A stretch of DNA of 64,000 nucleotides from Thermoplasmata archaeon (GTDB lineage Archaea > Thermoplasmatota > Thermoplasmata > Thermoplasmatales > Thermoplasmataceae): positions 62,001 to 126,000 of the forward strand of contig JAKATN010000002.1 of assembly GCA_021818715.1 (NCBI GenBank), written 5' to 3'. Below, piece by piece: positions 31,279 to 40,476 of the stretch (position 1 is the stretch's first letter; every line of letters starts with the position of its first letter). The translations under genes were made by a program, and so were the position numbers. The notes under the pieces were generated by a model. That model was not told where the DNA came from. It made no database searches and was given only the letters and a program-made list of their open reading frames with translations.

Positions 31279-33588
31279 TCAGAGATCGCACTTTCCATCA
31301 GGACAGGCAGGATCGAAAGTTCCTTCAAGAAGAAGCAGGCCCCCTCCCGCATCGGTTTTGAGCTTGACCTCCACGGTTTCGTGCTTTGTTTCTCCGGAAT
31401 AGAGGACCTGTTCGGTCTTGCTCCTGTCCCTGTAGATCGTGATCCCCTTGCACTTGAGATCAAAGGCCATCCTGTAAGCCTTCTCCACGTCTTCTATCTT
31501 CGCTTCAGCGGGAAGGTTGATAGTCTTGGACACGCCGGAATCACAGTATCTCTGGAATGTTGCCTGCATCATTATGTGCCACTCCGGAGTAATCTCGTGC
31601 GCAGTGCTGAAAATGGATTTCAGATCCTCGGGCAAATCCACATGCGCAAGGCTGCCTGTCTCTGCGATTTCCAGCATAATGGACTCCGAATAGAGCCCGC
31701 GTCTCTTCAACTCCTGCTCGAGAAACTCATTTTTCTCCACCAGAGTCTTTCCAGAAAGTACATGCCTGACATATGAAAGGGCGAAGTAAGGTTCAATGGA
31801 GGAGGAGCAGTTTGCAATTATTGAAATGGTGCCCGTGGGTGCTATGGTGGTAGTTGTCGAATTCCTCATCTTTATTCCCTGCTGCTTCCAGGTGGATCCT
31901 TCCCACGCAGGGAAGCAACCACGTTCCTTTGCTAGTTTTGACGATTCGTCGTGGGATATATCCTGCAGGAAGGACATCACTTCCTCTGCAGTTTTCAGCG
32001 CCTCTTTGCTGTTGTACGGCACACCAAGCTGGGCAAGCATATCTGCGAAACCCATTATGCCGAGCCCAATTTTCCTGGTTTTGTGCGTAACCTCATAAAT
32101 ATGTGCATCCGGGAACAGGTTTGCATCGATCACGTCATCCAGGAATCTCATCGATATCCGTATGGCTTCTTCAAGGGACTTGAAATCAATCTTGCCTCCG
32201 GATACAAACTTTGCCAGGTTTATTGATCCAAGGTTGCAGGATTCATACGGGAGAAGCGGCTGTTCTCCGCATGGGTTGGTCGCCTCAATCGCTCCAACAT
32301 TGGGAACAGTGTTATGCCTGTTCACCTCGTCAATGAAGATGAGCCCCGGATCTGCCGTTTTCCACGCCTGCGAAACAATTGAATCCCAGAGTGCAGAGGC
32401 CCTGATCTGCCTCTCAATCTTTCCGTTTCTTGGGTTGACAAGGTCTATGTTTTCATCCCTGTCAAGTTTCTCAAAGAATCCGGAATCTACTGCGACAGAG
32501 ATGTTGAAATTACGCAACTTCTGGTTCTCGCTGTCCTTTGAGTTGACAAATTCCATTATATCCGGGTGATCATACCGGAGTATTCCCATGTTAGCGCCAC
32601 GGCGTTTCCCTCCCTGTTTTATGACTTCCGTAGTGGTGTCAAATATCTTCATGAACGAGACCGGTCCGGAAGCCACCCCCTTCGATGACCCGACTAAGTC
32701 ATCCTTAGGCCTGAGGGAAGAGAAGGAGAATCCAGTTCCACCGCCGGATTTGTGGATCTTTGCAGTAAGTTTCAGTGAATCAAAAATTCCGTCTATATTG
32801 TCCCCTACCGGTATCACAAAACAGGCAGAAAGCTGCCCAAGTTCTGTGCCCGCATTCATCAGCGTGGGGGAATTGGGCATGAACTTCATCGATACCATGA
32901 GATCCATGAATTTCTCCGTATAGCTGTTTACCGAGTTCTTGTTAGTTGCCAGGAATTTCTCAAGCTTTTCCAGGTCTTCCTGCGAAGGTTCTTTGCCAAA
33001 CACGGATTTGTAGGCAATCTTCATTGAATTCTTCTGGTAGTTAGACAGGTGCGGTAGCATAGTCAAGTCGGAATTTCTTGTCCTGGAGTTCTTTGCCGAC
33101 GCAAAAAATTCATAGACGCCCTCCACGACCCCTATGGATTCTGCAACCCTCCTGAACAGTTGCCTGGGGGTTTCAATAATCTTTGCGTCCGCATCCTTAA
33201 GAAGGTACCTGGATTCTAGCACGGTAGCTGCATTCAGCGACAGTTTCAGGTCATCGCTGACGCCAAGCCTCTTCTTCTCCTCCCTGATTATGCTCCTGTT
33301 CTCCCTGTAAAGGATGTAAGTTCTTGCAACGTCAGCAAAGGACTTACCCTTGGGGGAATAGTGCATGAGCTCCTCTTCCACCATATCCTGCACCATTTCG
33401 ACATGCGGAACCTCGTGAGTGCTTTCCAGTCTTGCCACCACCAGGTCGCAGATCTTCTCTGCATCCTGGACAGCCCCATGATTGGCGGACAGCATCGCTT
33501 TGTACACTGCCTTGGTGATCCTTTCCTTTTCAAACGGGACTGACGTCCCGTCACGCTTTATTATCTCTTTTATGGTCATTTTTCTCAT
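31279..33588 (-). CDS. nrdJ: Class II (adenosylcobalamin-dependent) ribonucleotide reductase
   Basis: It reduces ribonucleotides with a radical generated from coenzyme B12 and needs no small subunit. Of 769 residues, the first 90 form an ATP-cone (IKRDGTSVPFEKERITKAVY). The barrel has SACFVIP (first redox cysteine), KSGGGTGFSFSSLRP, the catalytic cysteine in NPCGEQPLLPYESCNLGS, and APTGTISIIANCSSSIEP, all typical of the NrdJ/NrdZ branch. The C-terminus ends with a cysteine pair (ACPDGKC) that would re-reduce the active site. ATG at 33579 is an alternative start. It follows nrdB by 6 bases, so class I and class II genes are co-transcribed. Confidence 0.96.
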   Translation of the reverse strand: MRKMTIKEIIKRDGTSVPFEKERITKAVYKAMLSANHGAVQDAEKICDLVVARLESTHEVPHVEMVQDMVEEELMHYSPKGKSFADVARTYILYRENRSIIREEKKRLGVSDDLKLSLNAATVLESRYLLKDADAKIIETPRQLFRRVAESIGVVEGVYEFFASAKNSRTRNSDLTMLPHLSNYQKNSMKIAYKSVFGKEPSQEDLEKLEKFLATNKNSVNSYTEKFMDLMVSMKFMPNSPTLMNAGTELGQLSACFVIPVGDNIDGIFDSLKLTAKIHKSGGGTGFSFSSLRPKDDLVGSSKGVASGPVSFMKIFDTTTEVIKQGGKRRGANMGILRYDHPDIMEFVNSKDSENQKLRNFNISVAVDSGFFEKLDRDENIDLVNPRNGKIERQIRASALWDSIVSQAWKTADPGLIFIDEVNRHNTVPNVGAIEATNPCGEQPLLPYESCNLGSINLAKFVSGGKIDFKSLEEAIRISMRFLDDVIDANLFPDAHIYEVTHKTRKIGLGIMGFADMLAQLGVPYNSKEALKTAEEVMSFLQDISHDESSKLAKERGCFPAWEGSTWKQQGIKMRNSTTTTIAPTGTISIIANCSSSIEPYFALSYVRHVLSGKTLVEKNEFLEQELKRRGLYSESIMLEIAETGSLAHVDLPEDLKSIFSTAHEITPEWHIMMQATFQRYCDSGVSKTINLPAEAKIEDVEKAYRMAFDLKCKGITIYRDRSKTEQVLYSGETKHETVEVKLKTDAGGGLLLLEGTFDPACPDGKCDL

Positions 33589-33594
33589 CTCGTA

Positions 33595-34677
33595 TTATTT
33601 CTGTTCATTCTGGGAAGGCGGCCTCAGCCTCCCAATGTTGAAGTTCTTCCCCGTCTTCTGATAATTCGTCACTCTTCTCTCGAAGAAGTCGGTCTTGGTC
33701 AGGTTCATGGAAGAGTATGATTCGATCCATGAAAGCGGATGCGTCTTCTGATCAGGATATGGCTCTGGTAAATTAACCGCTTTACTTCTGATATTTCCAA
33801 GATATTTTATGTACATCTCGATGGCCTGATCGCTAAGTCCAAGGATCTGGTTCCTGGTCACGTATTTCCCCCACTCTATCTCATGCGTAACCGCAGTTTT
33901 AACCATTGCTGTCAGGTCAGACATAATCCCGGGAGTAAACCACTCACGGTTTTCGTCCATCAGTGTCCGCATTATGTCGGTGAACAGGGCGAGGTGGGTG
34001 TTCTCATCCCTCTGTATGAGCCTTATCATGCTCACCGTCCCTCCCATCTTGTCCTGCCTTCCCAGGGTGTAGAAAAATGCAAAACCGCTATAGAAATAAA
34101 CCCCCTCCAGAAGGAAGTCAGCCATGCACGACCTGATGAAATTCTCTGGAGAGGGATCGGCGATAAACTTCTCATAGAGGTCGGTGATGAACCTGTTTCT
34201 CCTGAGGAGATGAGAGTCATCCTTCCAGAGATCATATACCGCATCCCTCGTCATGTGATCGACTACAGAAGTGAGGAGATAATCGTAACTCTGCGCATGG
34301 ATCGTCTCAAAAAATGCCTGGGCCTTCAGGCAGGCGGTCACCTCAGGTGCGGTGATGTAAGAGGCGATCGCTCCCAGGTTATCTATCTGTATGCTGTCCA
34401 GAAAGATCAGGAAGGATAGGGTCTTCTTGTAGGCATCCTGTTCGTGGGGAGTGAGCGTGGGGTACTGCCTTTTGTCGTCAACAAGCGGCAGCTCGTCCGG
34501 TATCCAGAAGAAACTCCTCATCTTCTTGTAGAGTTCCTCCGCCCAACCATATCTGCAGTTGTCGAATTCCAGCAGGTTGGTTGATGGGCCGCCCACAAGC
34601 CTCTGTACACTTCTGTCCCTTGTCCCTTCCGGGTTGAACAGCCTCTTCTGTGACATCGTCTCATTTATGCCTGGCAT
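33595..34677 (-). CDS. nrdB: Class I ribonucleotide reductase small subunit (R2), apparently active
   Basis: R2 holds the diiron-tyrosyl radical used by NrdA. All metal ligands are visible: D94, E124, H127, E191, E225 and H228, with the radical tyrosine Y131 four residues after H127 (ETIHAQSYDY). The C-terminal tail after WIESYSSMN extends about 40 residues and contains a tyrosine in RRVTNYQ, as needed for radical transfer and docking to R1. A GTG at 34686 is possible, but the perfect Shine-Dalgarno AGGAGGTG lies 8 bases before ATG 34677, which overlaps the nrdA end. The result is 360 residues. Confidence 0.96.
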   Translation of the reverse strand: MPGINETMSQKRLFNPEGTRDRSVQRLVGGPSTNLLEFDNCRYGWAEELYKKMRSFFWIPDELPLVDDKRQYPTLTPHEQDAYKKTLSFLIFLDSIQIDNLGAIASYITAPEVTACLKAQAFFETIHAQSYDYLLTSVVDHMTRDAVYDLWKDDSHLLRRNRFITDLYEKFIADPSPENFIRSCMADFLLEGVYFYSGFAFFYTLGRQDKMGGTVSMIRLIQRDENTHLALFTDIMRTLMDENREWFTPGIMSDLTAMVKTAVTHEIEWGKYVTRNQILGLSDQAIEMYIKYLGNIRSKAVNLPEPYPDQKTHPLSWIESYSSMNLTKTDFFERRVTNYQKTGKNFNIGRLRPPSQNEQK

Positions 34678-37298
34678 GACTCGCACACCTCCTCGCTCTT
34701 TGTTTCCTCGTTTATGGTGAAGTTGCGGAAATAGTAGATGGTCTTCACCCCAAGCTTCCAGGCCTGGAAATATACCCCGAGAAGGTACTGCTCATCAAGT
34801 GCCTCCGTGGCGTATACATTCATTGACTGTGACTGATCAAGATGACGCTGCCTGGCAGCAGCCGCCTTGATGCTCCACATCTGATCAATGGAATGCGCAC
34901 CCTTATAGAATGGCGCAGTCCCGTCATTCAGGTTGGGTGCAATCTGCTTGATGATGAAGCCCTTCTTTTCCTCGACGAAGACTGGCTTGAACACAGGATC
35001 AATGCCGGCGGTTGAACCGGCAATCACGGACGTGGATCCTGTGGGTGCAATAGCCATTATGTAGCCATTCCTCACCCCATCCTTCCGGACTTCTTCCTTA
35101 AGCTTGAGCCATCTTTCGCTTTCATAACCCCTCAGCCTGAAGTATTCTCCTGATTCCCAGTCACTTTCTTTAAAGAGGGGATACGCGCCTCTTTCCCTTG
35201 CAAGCTCTACCTCGCTCTTTATGGCTATGTAGTTGATCTCTTCAAACAGTTTGTCGGCGTACTCCAGATGTTCGTCTGACTCCCAGTCTATCCCCCTCTC
35301 TGCCAGATGCTGGTGATACCCTGAAATGCCGACCCCTATAGCCCTGTACCTGGCATTCGTCAGCCTAGCCTGTTCAAGAGGCAGATTGTTCATGGTGATC
35401 ACGTTATCAAGCATACGAATCTGCACAGGGATCACCTCGTTCAGCTTTTCGAGAGTGTCTGTCCGTCCAAGGTTTATAGATGACAGGTTGCAAACCACGA
35501 GGTCTCCGGGAATGTAACGCTTCTCTATTTCCTCTTCAGCAACGCCTTCATTTTTGAGGACAGTTGGCGACTGGTTCTGGCAGATTTCAGTGCACAGGTT
35601 GGAAGAATAAATCATGCCGGCGTGCTTGTTCGGGTTCATCCTGTTCACAGTGTCCCTGTTGAAGATGAACGGCCCCCCTGTTTCATAAAGGCTCCTTAGT
35701 ATCTGGCCAAATATATCGAGAGCCGGGATAGTTTTCCTGCTTATCCTGCTGTCGGAAACACAGTCCAGGTATCTCTTTTCCCACTCTTCTCCCCAGAAAT
35801 CTTCCAGGGACCATCCTTTGACGCTCCTGATCTCATGTGGATCAAAGAGATTCCACTCACCATCCTTCTCAATTTCCCTGTAAAAAAGATCGGGAATGCA
35901 CACTCCAGGAAAGACATCGTATGCCCTCCTCCTCTCATCGCCGTTGTTGGTTTTCAAGTCGAGGAAATCCAGAATGTCTTTGTGCCATATATCCAGCCAC
36001 AGGCTGACTGCGCCTGCGCGTTGCCCCAGCTGGTTAACCGATACTGCGGTGTCATTGTAAAGCCTTACCCAGGGAACTATTCCGCTGCCGGCGCCCTTAT
36101 ACCCTCTTATGGTGCTGCCGAGCGATCTCAGTTTCCCCAGATATACTCCCATCCCCCCTCCATTCTGGGACACCTTGGCAAAGGTTGTCAGCCCGTCGAA
36201 TATAGCTTGAAGCGAGTCATCGGGCGTATCAATGAAGCAGGAGCTGAGCTGCCCGTCAAGCCTCCTCGCGTTGGCAAGCGTCGGTGTCGCTACTGTTATG
36301 TACAGGTTTGAAAGGACATCATAAAACTTCTTCGCCCATTTTATTCTATCTTCCGGCTTCTCGGCAATGGCCAGGAAGCAGGCAATGCCCATAAAGGTCT
36401 CCTGAGGGAGTTCCAGTACCTCATCCTGCAGGCCCTTTATGCAATATCTGTCCGAGAGATGTTTTAATCCTGCGTACGTGAACAGCCTATCCTTGTCAGG
36501 TCTGATGTATGATCCCAGCTCCTCAAGATCCTCCTTTGTGTATGTCTGCAATACCTTTGGATCGTACCTGCCTATCTTCGTCAGGGTGTTCACGAGATCA
36601 TGAAAGCTGCCATATCCATGCGGGGACAGCCTGTTTTTGGATGCTTCCTTGTAAAGATCGTGGAGAAGCAGGCGCGCAGCCACGTAAGTCCAGTTTGGTT
36701 GGGATGCCGTAGTTTTCTCGTTCGCGACTTTTATGAGTGTTTCCTGTATCGCTCTGGTTGAAACTCCCTCGTAGAAATGAATTTGGGAATCGACCTCAAG
36801 GACAAGCGGATCAACCCCGGCCAGCCCGTCACAGGCATCCATGACGACATTCCTGATCTTTCCTACATCTATTGGCACTCTCTCTCCTTTCCTGTTGGTC
36901 ACAGTTGTCGGGCGGAGCCTAAGATCAACGCGCGGTTGTTCAAGCACTACCTGCCCCTTTCCGGAAGGAATCGATTTTTCAGAAAGGCGCTGCTTTTCCT
37001 CCCTTATTTTCCTCCTGTTTTCCCTGTAAAGGATGTAGGATTCGGCCACTTCGGAAAATCTCTTTCCGCCGATTTCTTCGTTCAAAAGCATTTTGATTAC
37101 GATGTCCTGAACGTCCTCTACCGTCGGCATATCACCTGCTTCTTCAAGGGACTTCAGAACCATCCCGGTGAATTTCTCAGCATCATCGATATCGCCGATC
37201 CCTGACGAGTGCATTGCCTTGAAGATAGCCTGCGTGATCTTTTTAGGCTGAAATTCCACTACATTTCCGTCTCTCTTTACAATTGTCCTGATCGCCAT
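34665..37298 (-). CDS. nrdA: Class I ribonucleotide reductase large subunit (R1)
   Basis: The 877 residues start with two ATP-cone domains (about 1-95 starting IRTIVKRDGNVVEF, and about 125-215 starting TVTNRKGERVPIDV), which bind the dATP/ATP that sets overall activity. The barrel has QLSSCFID (redox cysteine), KVSQNGGGMGVYLG, the NLCTEI catalytic segment, CNLSSINLG, and APTGSTSVIAGSTAGIDP. The tail ends with CESC, the external redox pair. ATG 37298 has an AGGTGG Shine-Dalgarno 7 bases upstream, better placed than the TTG at 37304. Tandem repeats upstream may be an operator. Confidence 0.96.
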   Translation of the reverse strand: MAIRTIVKRDGNVVEFQPKKITQAIFKAMHSSGIGDIDDAEKFTGMVLKSLEEAGDMPTVEDVQDIVIKMLLNEEIGGKRFSEVAESYILYRENRRKIREEKQRLSEKSIPSGKGQVVLEQPRVDLRLRPTTVTNRKGERVPIDVGKIRNVVMDACDGLAGVDPLVLEVDSQIHFYEGVSTRAIQETLIKVANEKTTASQPNWTYVAARLLLHDLYKEASKNRLSPHGYGSFHDLVNTLTKIGRYDPKVLQTYTKEDLEELGSYIRPDKDRLFTYAGLKHLSDRYCIKGLQDEVLELPQETFMGIACFLAIAEKPEDRIKWAKKFYDVLSNLYITVATPTLANARRLDGQLSSCFIDTPDDSLQAIFDGLTTFAKVSQNGGGMGVYLGKLRSLGSTIRGYKGAGSGIVPWVRLYNDTAVSVNQLGQRAGAVSLWLDIWHKDILDFLDLKTNNGDERRRAYDVFPGVCIPDLFYREIEKDGEWNLFDPHEIRSVKGWSLEDFWGEEWEKRYLDCVSDSRISRKTIPALDIFGQILRSLYETGGPFIFNRDTVNRMNPNKHAGMIYSSNLCTEICQNQSPTVLKNEGVAEEEIEKRYIPGDLVVCNLSSINLGRTDTLEKLNEVIPVQIRMLDNVITMNNLPLEQARLTNARYRAIGVGISGYHQHLAERGIDWESDEHLEYADKLFEEINYIAIKSEVELARERGAYPLFKESDWESGEYFRLRGYESERWLKLKEEVRKDGVRNGYIMAIAPTGSTSVIAGSTAGIDPVFKPVFVEEKKGFIIKQIAPNLNDGTAPFYKGAHSIDQMWSIKAAAARQRHLDQSQSMNVYATEALDEQYLLGVYFQAWKLGVKTIYYFRNFTINEETKSEEVCESCQA

Positions 37299-37304
37299 CT
37301 TCAA

Positions 37305-37704: not shown

Positions 37705-38703
37705 CTATTTCTTTATCTCTATAAGCGAATCATACCATGGAATCGGGCTCCCGCTGATGCCGGGATATAAGGTGGCTATGTTCAGGGCCTTGGCTTCCCT
37801 GTTGGCAAGTGCCTGGCTGAACCGCGTAAGTGCAAAGTCAGTGAGGCCGGGTGCCATCCCTTCCGTGACGTTATGTATGAAATCCGTCTCCGATCTTATA
37901 AGTTCCTTGATGACATCTGAGGAAATAGAGTTGAAAGTGTCATTCTGCAGCTGAGGGTTCTCCTCCAGTATGGTGTTGACCGTCTTGACAAGCAATTCAT
38001 ACTGAAGGATTATGTCCCTGTTTATATATTTCACAAGGTTTGTGGTGAAGATGAGCCTGTTGTGTCTGGAAAAGGCATAAATCACCGCGAATTCTGTAGG
38101 TAGAATGGATCCGACAACCACTGCCGAAGTTATGAGGTTCAGCAGGAAATTCTCTACAATCGGCTCTCTGATATAGGAGAAAAAGTAGTCGTTGATGATC
38201 CTGTTCCTGCTCTTGAACCATTCAGTAGTTCGCCAGGACTCATAGATCGGTTCCCTGAGGTTCTGCGGCAGGGCATGGACTGCAATCTGGGTGTAAGAGT
38301 CTGCGTGCAAAGTTTCCTGGAAGGATAATCCGGAGTAGGCCGCAACAACTTCCGGCGAAGTGAAATAAGGCAAAATCACCTCATAGTTGGAAAAAAGTAT
38401 ACTTTCAACAATCATCAGGGAGGAAAGGGTGCGCATAAATATCTTCCTGTCAAGGTCAGACAGCGCTGAGAAATCCCTGTTTTCCCTGTCAAGGTTGAAC
38501 TCTGCGGGATTATATGTATTGGAAACAATTTTTCTGTAAATCGAAGCCGCCCATGGATACTTGGGGTCGTCCAGTGACAGTAGATTTGTGTGGCTTCCCC
38601 CAATTATACGTTTCCTGCTGACCCACTTGTCTCCGCTCTCGTTGAAGAGGAAGATCCGCTGCATCCTGTCCCTTGCGGAAAGCCCGCTTTTGCTCTCTAT
38701 CAT
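37705..38703 (-). CDS. Degenerate R2-like ribonucleotide reductase paralogue (second-iron half-site lost)
   Basis: This 332-residue product aligns without gaps to NrdB through the ligand helices: IIGGSHTNLLSLDDPKYPW, QETLHADSYT and YINRD match. It keeps E100 (in place of Asp), E130, H133 and the radical tyrosine position Y137. The other ligands are replaced: Glu by V197, Glu by I231 and His by Q234. It also ends right after the PIPWYDS segment, about 30-35 residues short, so the tail that docks R2 into R1 is missing. A structural or regulatory partner of NrdB (as yeast Rnr4) is likely; a metal-free radical protein is the alternative. A box at 38731-38740 favours ATG 38703 over the longer frame from 38850. 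Confidence 0.88.
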   Translation of the reverse strand: MIESKSGLSARDRMQRIFLFNESGDKWVSRKRIIGGSHTNLLSLDDPKYPWAASIYRKIVSNTYNPAEFNLDRENRDFSALSDLDRKIFMRTLSSLMIVESILFSNYEVILPYFTSPEVVAAYSGLSFQETLHADSYTQIAVHALPQNLREPIYESWRTTEWFKSRNRIINDYFFSYIREPIVENFLLNLITSAVVVGSILPTEFAVIYAFSRHNRLIFTTNLVKYINRDIILQYELLVKTVNTILEENPQLQNDTFNSISSDVIKELIRSETDFIHNVTEGMAPGLTDFALTRFSQALANREAKALNIATLYPGISGSPIPWYDSLIEIKK

Positions 38704-38740: not shown

Positions 38741-38955
38741 CTCCCCTTATTGGTACAGAATATAAATACAGTATCTTTAGCGTCCATGCCCTCAGGCAGG
38801 ATCAATGAGAAGGGGTTTATCCCGGTCCTCGCAATTCCGCAACGGTTCAAAATGCTTTACCCGTGATTCCTGATTCTGCAACACTTTCTTCACCCTCCAG
38901 ATTCCTATGGCAAACAAGTCATGAGAGTATATGTACGGCGCAGGAATACCGTTGT

Positions 38956-40476
38956 ATGGGAATCGTCGAATGCGTTCCTAATTTCAGCGAAGGAAGGGAT
39001 GAGAAAATTGTATCCTATATAAGGGAGGCAATATCGTCGGTTGAAGGGATTTCGGTTCTTGACACGGAAATGAATCCGGATCACAACAGGGCCGTGATAA
39101 CCTTCGCAGGGGATTCTTCCATAGTTGTAGAGGCAGCTTTCAGGGGGATAAAGCGCGCGGCAGAGCTTATAGACATGACCACTCACAAGGGAGAGCACCC
39201 GAGGTTTGGTGCTGCCGACGTAGTCCCGTTCGTGCCGGTCACTGGAAACATTGAGGAATGTGTCAAACTGGCCGGAGATCTTGCTGGCAGAGTTGCCAGG
39301 GAATTGTCGATACCTGTGTATCTGTACGGAAGCGCGGCCAGAATTCCATGGCGATCCAATCTGGAAAACATCAGAAATGCAAAATTCCAGATCGAGGAGC
39401 TCAGGGAACACATCTCCGAGGATAAATGGAAACCGGATGAAGGACCTAAGACAATAGGGAAGGCTGGTGCATGCATAATCGGCGCAAGGGAGTATCTCGT
39501 CGCCTACAACGTAAACCTCGACACTCCTGACGTTGACGTGGCAAAGAAGGTGTCGAAGCAGATCAGGGAAAAAGCAGGAGGGCTCAAAAACGTAAAGGCC
39601 TTGGGATTTTACCTATCCGAGAAGAACCGTGCCCAGGTTTCAATGAATCTGGTGGATTTCAAGTCAACTCCTGTCTACAGGGCTTATGAAAACGTCAGGA
39701 TGGAGGCAGCAAGGTATGGCGCCAAGCCGGTGGAAAGCGAGATCGTGGGGCTGATTCCGCTGAAAGCTGTGCTAGATACAGCAGCCTACTACCTGAGGAT
39801 GGAAAGCATTCCCGAGGATCAGATTTTTGAGAACAGGCTCTCGAAATCCATGATCAATGATACCCTGGGGGACTTCATGTCGAGACTCGCTTCCTCATCC
39901 CCCACTCCGGGAGGGGGGGCAGCAAGCGCAATGGTGGGTGCAATAGCCGCAGCCCTGTCCAGCATGGTAGCCTCCCTAACCGCAGGCAGGAAGGCTTACG
40001 CGTCAGTCAGTTCAGAGATGGAGAAAATAATCGCCGAATCCAGGAACATCATGTCAGAGATGAACAGGCTGATGAAAGAGGATGAGGAGGCTTTCAATGG
40101 GATTTCCGCAGTCTGGAAAATGCCCAGGGAGACAGAAGAGCAGAAGGAGGCCAGGAACGGGGAGCTTCAGAGAGCGCTAGTGGACGCTATAGGCGTGCCA
40201 ACGAGAATAGCGAAAGGATGCCGCAGCATCCTGGACAGTTTGAAGATTCTTGCGGAAAAGGGCAACAAGAATGCGATCAGCGATGTGGCCTGCTCAGCCG
40301 AATTCGCGTTTGCGGCCATACGTGGTGCATCGTCCAACGTACTGATAAATGCAAAGTCCCTTGCCAGTGGAGATGAATGCACAAGGCTGGTGAAGGAGAC
40401 CGCAACCCTGATAGATGAGTCTGAACAAATTCTAAAGGAGATAAGAAAAATTGTGGATTCTAAAATAACAGGGTAA
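38956..40476 (+). CDS. ftcD: Bifunctional glutamate formiminotransferase / formiminotetrahydrofolate cyclodeaminase
   Basis: It transfers the formimino group from formiminoglutamate (from histidine breakdown) to tetrahydrofolate, then releases ammonia to give methenyl-tetrahydrofolate. Residues 1 to about 300 are the transferase: MGIVECVPNFSEG, catalytic-region NPDHNRAVITFAG, and THKGEHPRFGAADVVPFVP. Residues about 320-506 are the cyclodeaminase, with SSSPTPGGGAASAMVGA and a helical bundle. The GAGTATATG box at 38925-38933 sets the start at ATG 38956; an in-frame extension to 38863 is not supported. No other histidine-degradation gene is nearby. It may feed one-carbon units to purH. Confidence 0.95.
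   Translation: MGIVECVPNFSEGRDEKIVSYIREAISSVEGISVLDTEMNPDHNRAVITFAGDSSIVVEAAFRGIKRAAELIDMTTHKGEHPRFGAADVVPFVPVTGNIEECVKLAGDLAGRVARELSIPVYLYGSAARIPWRSNLENIRNAKFQIEELREHISEDKWKPDEGPKTIGKAGACIIGAREYLVAYNVNLDTPDVDVAKKVSKQIREKAGGLKNVKALGFYLSEKNRAQVSMNLVDFKSTPVYRAYENVRMEAARYGAKPVESEIVGLIPLKAVLDTAAYYLRMESIPEDQIFENRLSKSMINDTLGDFMSRLASSSPTPGGGAASAMVGAIAAALSSMVASLTAGRKAYASVSSEMEKIIAESRNIMSEMNRLMKEDEEAFNGISAVWKMPRETEEQKEARNGELQRALVDAIGVPTRIAKGCRSILDSLKILAEKGNKNAISDVACSAEFAFAAIRGASSNVLINAKSLASGDECTRLVKETATLIDESEQILKEIRKIVDSKITG

Follow-up and report, generated by a model that had tools for sequence, protein, structure and literature searches.

The stretch of DNA analysed here (the window, 64,000 nucleotides) belongs to an archaeal genome of 1.39 Mb that is 91% complete. 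It encodes both subunits of an oxygen-dependent class I RNR, together with a class II RNR and an additional R2-like protein, which we call X (Table 1). On the minus strand the order of transcription is X, nrdA, nrdB, nrdJ. NrdA has two N-terminal ATP-cones and ends with the CESC and YY motifs, and NrdB has a tail of 43 residues, the radical Tyr134 and all six metal ligands (D97, E127, H130, E194, E228, H231). Thus the statement of an earlier sequence-only reading of this DNA that X adjoins a complete class I RNR holds. About 400 bp lie between X and nrdA, so that a single transcript is not required, and a repeat scan of the regions upstream of X and nrdA yielded no convincing shared operator. 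The divergent neighbour of X lies outside the RNR system; we take its product, by recognition of the sequence, to be glutamate formiminotransferase/cyclodeaminase-like (FTCD-like).

Table 1. Features of the RNR locus, in window coordinates
Feature	Position	Strand	Description	Basis
X	37705..38703	-	R2-like paralogue, 332 aa, ATG start	R2 family by Pfam and NCBIfam
X codon V197	38113-38115	-	lost ligand	
X codon I231	38011-38013	-	lost ligand	
X codon Q234	38002-38004	-	lost ligand	
X E100, E130, H133, Y137, D230			residues kept	
X E204			newly conserved residue	
nrdA	34665..37304	-	class I R1 subunit, 879 aa	Pfam/NCBIfam
nrdB	33595..34686	-	canonical R2, overlaps nrdA	Pfam/NCBIfam
nrdJ	31279..33588	-	class II (B12-dependent) RNR, 6 bp past nrdB	Pfam/NCBIfam
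FTCD-like gene	38950..40476	+	divergent from X	conserved neighbour (synteny)

X is a member of the Ribonuc_red_sm superfamily and matches the full PF00268 domain with 136 bits (cutoff 33.6). It scores 206 bits with the NF007184 equivalog, below the cutoff of 310, and the neighbouring NrdB scores 434. Its best matches are of this prokaryotic R2 type, with 255 bits to the Aquifex R2 and 46 bits to the yeast R2. The predicted model of X (pLDDT 85.8, pTM 0.88) matches the Aquifex R2 over its whole length (TM 0.90 with 7ail, Z 41 with 7aik), and by this model X keeps the whole R2 fold.

The alignment of X with NrdB is gap-free from X12 to X332 at a constant offset of three residues, 92 of 330 positions (28%) being identical. 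The ligand columns (E. coli/NrdB/X) of the first half-site are D84/D97/E100, E115/E127/E130 and H118/H130/H133, those of the second are E204/E194/V197, E238/E228/I231 and H241/H231/Q234, and the radical tyrosine column is Y122/Y134/Y137. Independently, a profile alignment that included the solved R2 structures of Aquifex, C. botulinum and B. halodurans matched the same columns. The replacement of three NrdB ligands by V, I and Q, reported earlier as affecting E191, E225 and H228, was thus reproduced; we count NrdB from its GTG codon, whereas the first count began at MPGINE and its numbers are three lower. The retained radical tyrosine was likewise confirmed in the window. The claim that the E/E/H of the first half-site is kept is true of the window X, but NrdB itself has D/E/H, and the glutamate at the E115 position is found only in the window's genus. 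In addition, the window X has no equivalent of W48 (Y64 in its place).

The docking tail is indeed absent, as had been noticed: only nine residues follow W323, the last conserved tryptophan of X, versus 43 after the matching tryptophan of NrdB. Across the family this segment is 8-10 residues long in all 18 X sequences and 38-43 in all intact NrdBs. Since all 18 orthologues stop at the same place, the tail loss is not due to a frameshift or an assembly error local to the window. Therefore X lacks what defines an active class I R2, the six-ligand set being incomplete and the C-terminal R1-docking tail with the radical-transfer tyrosine missing.

In whole-genome searches, X was present in 17 of the 117 genomes of the order Thermoplasmatales, all from a single family and belonging to the genera designated g1 (the window's genus), g9, g11, g18 and g19; the resulting set comprises 18 sequences, full-length and free of stops, with identities of 33-97%. 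NrdB is also found in the assembly for 15 of these 17 genomes. An alignment-based search of 400 Thermoplasmata genomes added nothing outside that one family, a genome-contig collection gave Thermoplasmata matches only, and viral contigs gave no relative. In plasmids and phages, among the matches listed (5 of 219 plasmid and 5 of 490 phage records), there were only distant ones, at most 31% identical and, where annotated, described as ordinary R2.

Comparison of these sequences refines the picture drawn from the window. None of the family members has a complete ligand set, and the usual diiron site is, judging from the residues, not expected in any of them. The bridging glutamate at the E115 position is replaced by T, Q, L, N or H outside g1, and this position stands at the 82nd percentile of variability. 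The position of E. coli E204 is occupied by nine different residues (99th percentile), its glutamate being gone in all sequences except one (L017), and the E238 position has lost the glutamate in all 18 and is always I, L or V, as if a cavity had been filled. The H241 position is H, Q or N; histidine is present in 10 of 17 scored members, so the loss in the window's genus was probably a later event. The D84 position is glutamate in 17 of 18 sequences, and the H118 and D237 positions (H133 and D230 of X) are invariant. A further glutamate, E204 of X at the position of E. coli S211, has no counterpart in NrdB, is kept in 17 of 18 sequences and sits two turns of the helix away from the lost ligand. 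The radical tyrosine position is leucine throughout g18, and the W48 position varies among W, Y, F and S. Thus the V-I-Q pattern is confined to the window's genus. What marks the family as a whole is that the Fe2 glutamate and both bridging-glutamate positions are lost and that H118 and D237 never vary. The strongest constraint falls on the C-terminal segment 307-328 in X and on the metal helices in NrdB. This segment of X is conserved to the same degree as in NrdB, and constraint has moved within X relative to NrdB.

The order FTCD-like gene, X, nrdA, nrdB is observed in g1, g9, g11 and g18 and in one genome of g19 (G116). A recurrence of both the V-I-Q pattern and the synteny with nrdAB in relatives had been suggested as a check; the synteny recurs in four genera and in G116, but the pattern does not leave the window's genus. 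The nrdJ gene comes next after nrdB in g1, g9 and g11 where the contig extends, and does not adjoin nrdB in g18. In genus g14 the FTCD-like gene adjoins nrdA with no X between them, and in g6 nrdAB is located at another place and no X match was found in those genomes (four genomes, one of them 96% complete in 8 contigs). The existence of nrdAB without X in these two genera implies that X is accessory, having been gained at or lost from the spot between the FTCD-like gene and nrdA, and that NrdB cannot depend on X for its function.

Several individual assemblies deviate from this arrangement. A TnpB-like transposon gene lies between X and nrdA in G090 (L119, G090:C1, 5413-6687). The most diverged X, intact and fast-evolving, is found in G115 (L116, G115:C2, 2249-3244) and is followed by a CutA-like gene; no nrdA, nrdB or nrdJ was found in this assembly, which is 76% complete. 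G077 has on a short contig a second X-nrdA pair (L124, G077:C31, 1-4820) whose X is nearly identical to that of G084, a genome of another genus; either a mis-binned contig or a recent transfer may account for it. Similarly, a nrdB-nrdA fragment in G039, a genome of another family (L117, G039:C56, 1-3555), with its NrdB matching that of G109 (g18), may reflect either contamination or transfer.

NrdA varies as well among these genera. It carries two ATP-cones in g1, g6, g9 and g11 (window 34665-37304; L034-L039) and one in G113 of g18 by PF03477, and tblastn alignments of the window NrdA in g18 and g19 begin after the first cone; from this difference, overall-activity regulation is predicted to differ between X-bearing genera. 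The window NrdA and NrdB are each 55% identical to their counterparts on a plasmid of Alicyclobacillus dauci, and the identity between the window NrdB and the other class I R2s of Thermoplasmatota (family f49) is only about 23-28%. From these identities, the class I pair (window 33595-37304) looks acquired from bacteria.

In the phylogenetic tree, the 18 X sequences form a single clade with 100/100 support, and NrdB of Thermoplasmatales forms another (98/100); the X family has a single origin. The trees of X and of NrdB both split (g18, g19) from (g1, g9, g11), as vertical descent of the pair would give. An origin by duplication inside the lineage, with X and NrdB as sisters, was not rejected (p-AU 0.131). 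The dN/dS of X is 0.02-0.07 in five close pairs (0.05 for the window pair), to which the estimate was restricted because dS is saturated in distant pairs. Between the window and G076, dS is 0.238 in both genes, and dN is 0.012 in X versus 0.002 in NrdB. Hence X is under selection, less tightly than NrdB, and its evolution is several times faster.

Taken together, the sequence data suggest that X is probably a structural or regulatory partner of the RNR. R2 proteins are dimers, and the most plausible explanation of an R2 fold maintained under selection beside nrdAB without the cofactor and the tail is that X forms the dead half of an NrdB·X dimer. In the version that we prefer, with a probability of roughly 0.55, the dead, tail-less X pairs with NrdB as β·X and aids assembly or docking in the manner of yeast Rnr4, having evolved separately. 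The small subunit would then be a dimer of X and the canonical NrdB, with a single radical site and a single tail for R1 docking. By supplying the other half of this dimer, X would keep NrdB in a shape suited to assembly of the diiron-tyrosyl centre and to the docking of tails on NrdA one at a time, and the X:NrdB ratio would allow the cell to tune class I activity. We infer accordingly a heterodimer, absence of metal in X, and a positive effect (assembly or stability) rather than an inhibitory one. In the active E. coli complex one β tail is docked and used at a time (PMC11482829), and a dimer with a dead, tail-less half is thus compatible with catalysis. Moreover, the R2 of yeast is a heterodimer with a β' unable to make the cofactor (PMC3824934). 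Against the NrdB·X dimer stand the faster evolution of X, as slower evolution might be expected of an obligate interface partner, and the separate occurrence of the partners, nrdAB without X in g6 and g14 and X without detectable nrdAB in G115.

The lack of the R1-docking tail and, in the window, of the radical-path W48 would also suit a negative regulator that damps class I, either by tying up NrdB in heterodimers poor in tails or by competing with R2 for its site on NrdA, for example at low oxygen, when the class II NrdJ encoded nearby would take over. The O2-independent NrdJ is encoded in the same neighbourhood in g1, g9 and g11, and X is dispensable, as g6 and g14 demonstrate; however, g18 keeps X though nrdJ is not beside nrdB, and deep conservation beside nrdAB equally fits a working part, and we regard negative regulation as unlikely. 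Less likely still is a job outside the holoenzyme, X being an R2-derived protein merely inherited beside nrdAB, for example as a homodimer that binds metal or another ligand, or takes part in redox chemistry, via E100/H133/D230 and E204. The persistence of these four residues, H133 and D230 invariant and E100 and E204 nearly so, while the rest of the site is degraded, agrees with such a job, as does X in G115. But the G115 assembly, incomplete as it is, has no NrdJ either and is likely to miss contigs; in all other assembled cases the conserved gene beside X is nrdA, and E204 of X is two helical turns away from the position of the lost ligand. Lower again we rate the proposal that the archaeal class I small subunit is normally an asymmetric β·X, with an X that arose independently of yeast Rnr4, and that E100, H133, E204 and D230 of X make up a rebuilt site other than diiron, which would act as a chaperone or in redox chemistry when the radical of NrdB is built.

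Two further readings have very little probability. Fast evolution, absence from g6 and g14 and the highly diverged copy in G115 could be signs of a decaying duplicate, a pseudogene in progress. For the family at large this is already refuted by 18 sequences without internal stops or frameshifts, the low dN/dS, the invariant columns and one clade over five genera; stop codons or neutral rates in relatives, which the sequence-only reading had named as marks of a pseudogene, were not found. Least credible is that X works as a metal-free R2 like those of class Ie, with a radical on a modified tyrosine, despite the three lost ligands and the tyrosine kept in the window's genus. Class Ie is defined by VPK or QSK at three glutamates (PMC11846895). 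No lysine occurs at the three glutamate columns in the 18 sequences, the radical tyrosine is leucine in g18, no tail can reach R1, and NrdI was detected by PF07972 in none of seven genomes, the E. coli, B. subtilis and L. lactis controls being positive. On these grounds class Ie is ruled out, in agreement with the earlier judgement that it is not an exact match.

The preferred NrdB·X reading would extend to archaea an arrangement for which yeast, where ligand-deficient R2 partners are established, has so far been the main example. Our search of the open-access literature, which was not exhaustive, found no report of such a partner in Bacteria or Archaea, and to our knowledge no prokaryotic R2 partner of this kind is known. 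If true, an independent archaeal case that also lacks the docking tail would provide a small subunit that by nature has one tail and one radical. It would offer a direct test of whether a single active half in each R2 dimer is enough for class I RNR, as suggested by recent asymmetric α2-β2 structures, and of what the dead half does.

The closest structures and sequence family of X are the NF007184-type NrdBs of Aquifex aeolicus, Clostridium botulinum and Alicyclobacillus, which are ligand-complete and tailed, whereas X, 26-31% identical to them, is without both features. R2lox shares with X an R2 fold without the R1-docking C-terminus, but keeps a complete Mn/Fe ligand set, and X was not assigned to it for that reason. 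Class Ie R2 has three ligand substitutions in the same fold, and the tyrosine is kept in part of the X family; the substitutions in X are other ones, and a normal NrdB is present beside it. Apicomplexan R2_e2 (PfR4) is, like X, a divergent second R2 in a lineage with one orthodox R2, but it keeps the iron ligands and lacks the radical tyrosine, the reverse of X in the window's genus (PMC3824934). X resembles an Rnr4-like β' in being a second R2, deficient in ligands, that occurs together with a canonical R1 and R2. The metal ligands of Rnr4 are lost as well. Orthology with Rnr4 by eukaryotic R2 descent was rejected, the best matches of X being of the prokaryotic type. Rnr4, the β' of yeast Rnr2/Rnr4, is likewise a cofactor-incompetent second paralogue beside canonical R2 and R1 (PMC3824934), but it is eukaryotic with a shortened N-terminus, whereas X keeps its N-terminus and has no C-terminal tail. 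The two are of independent origin, alike in their way of working only as far as the sequence tells.
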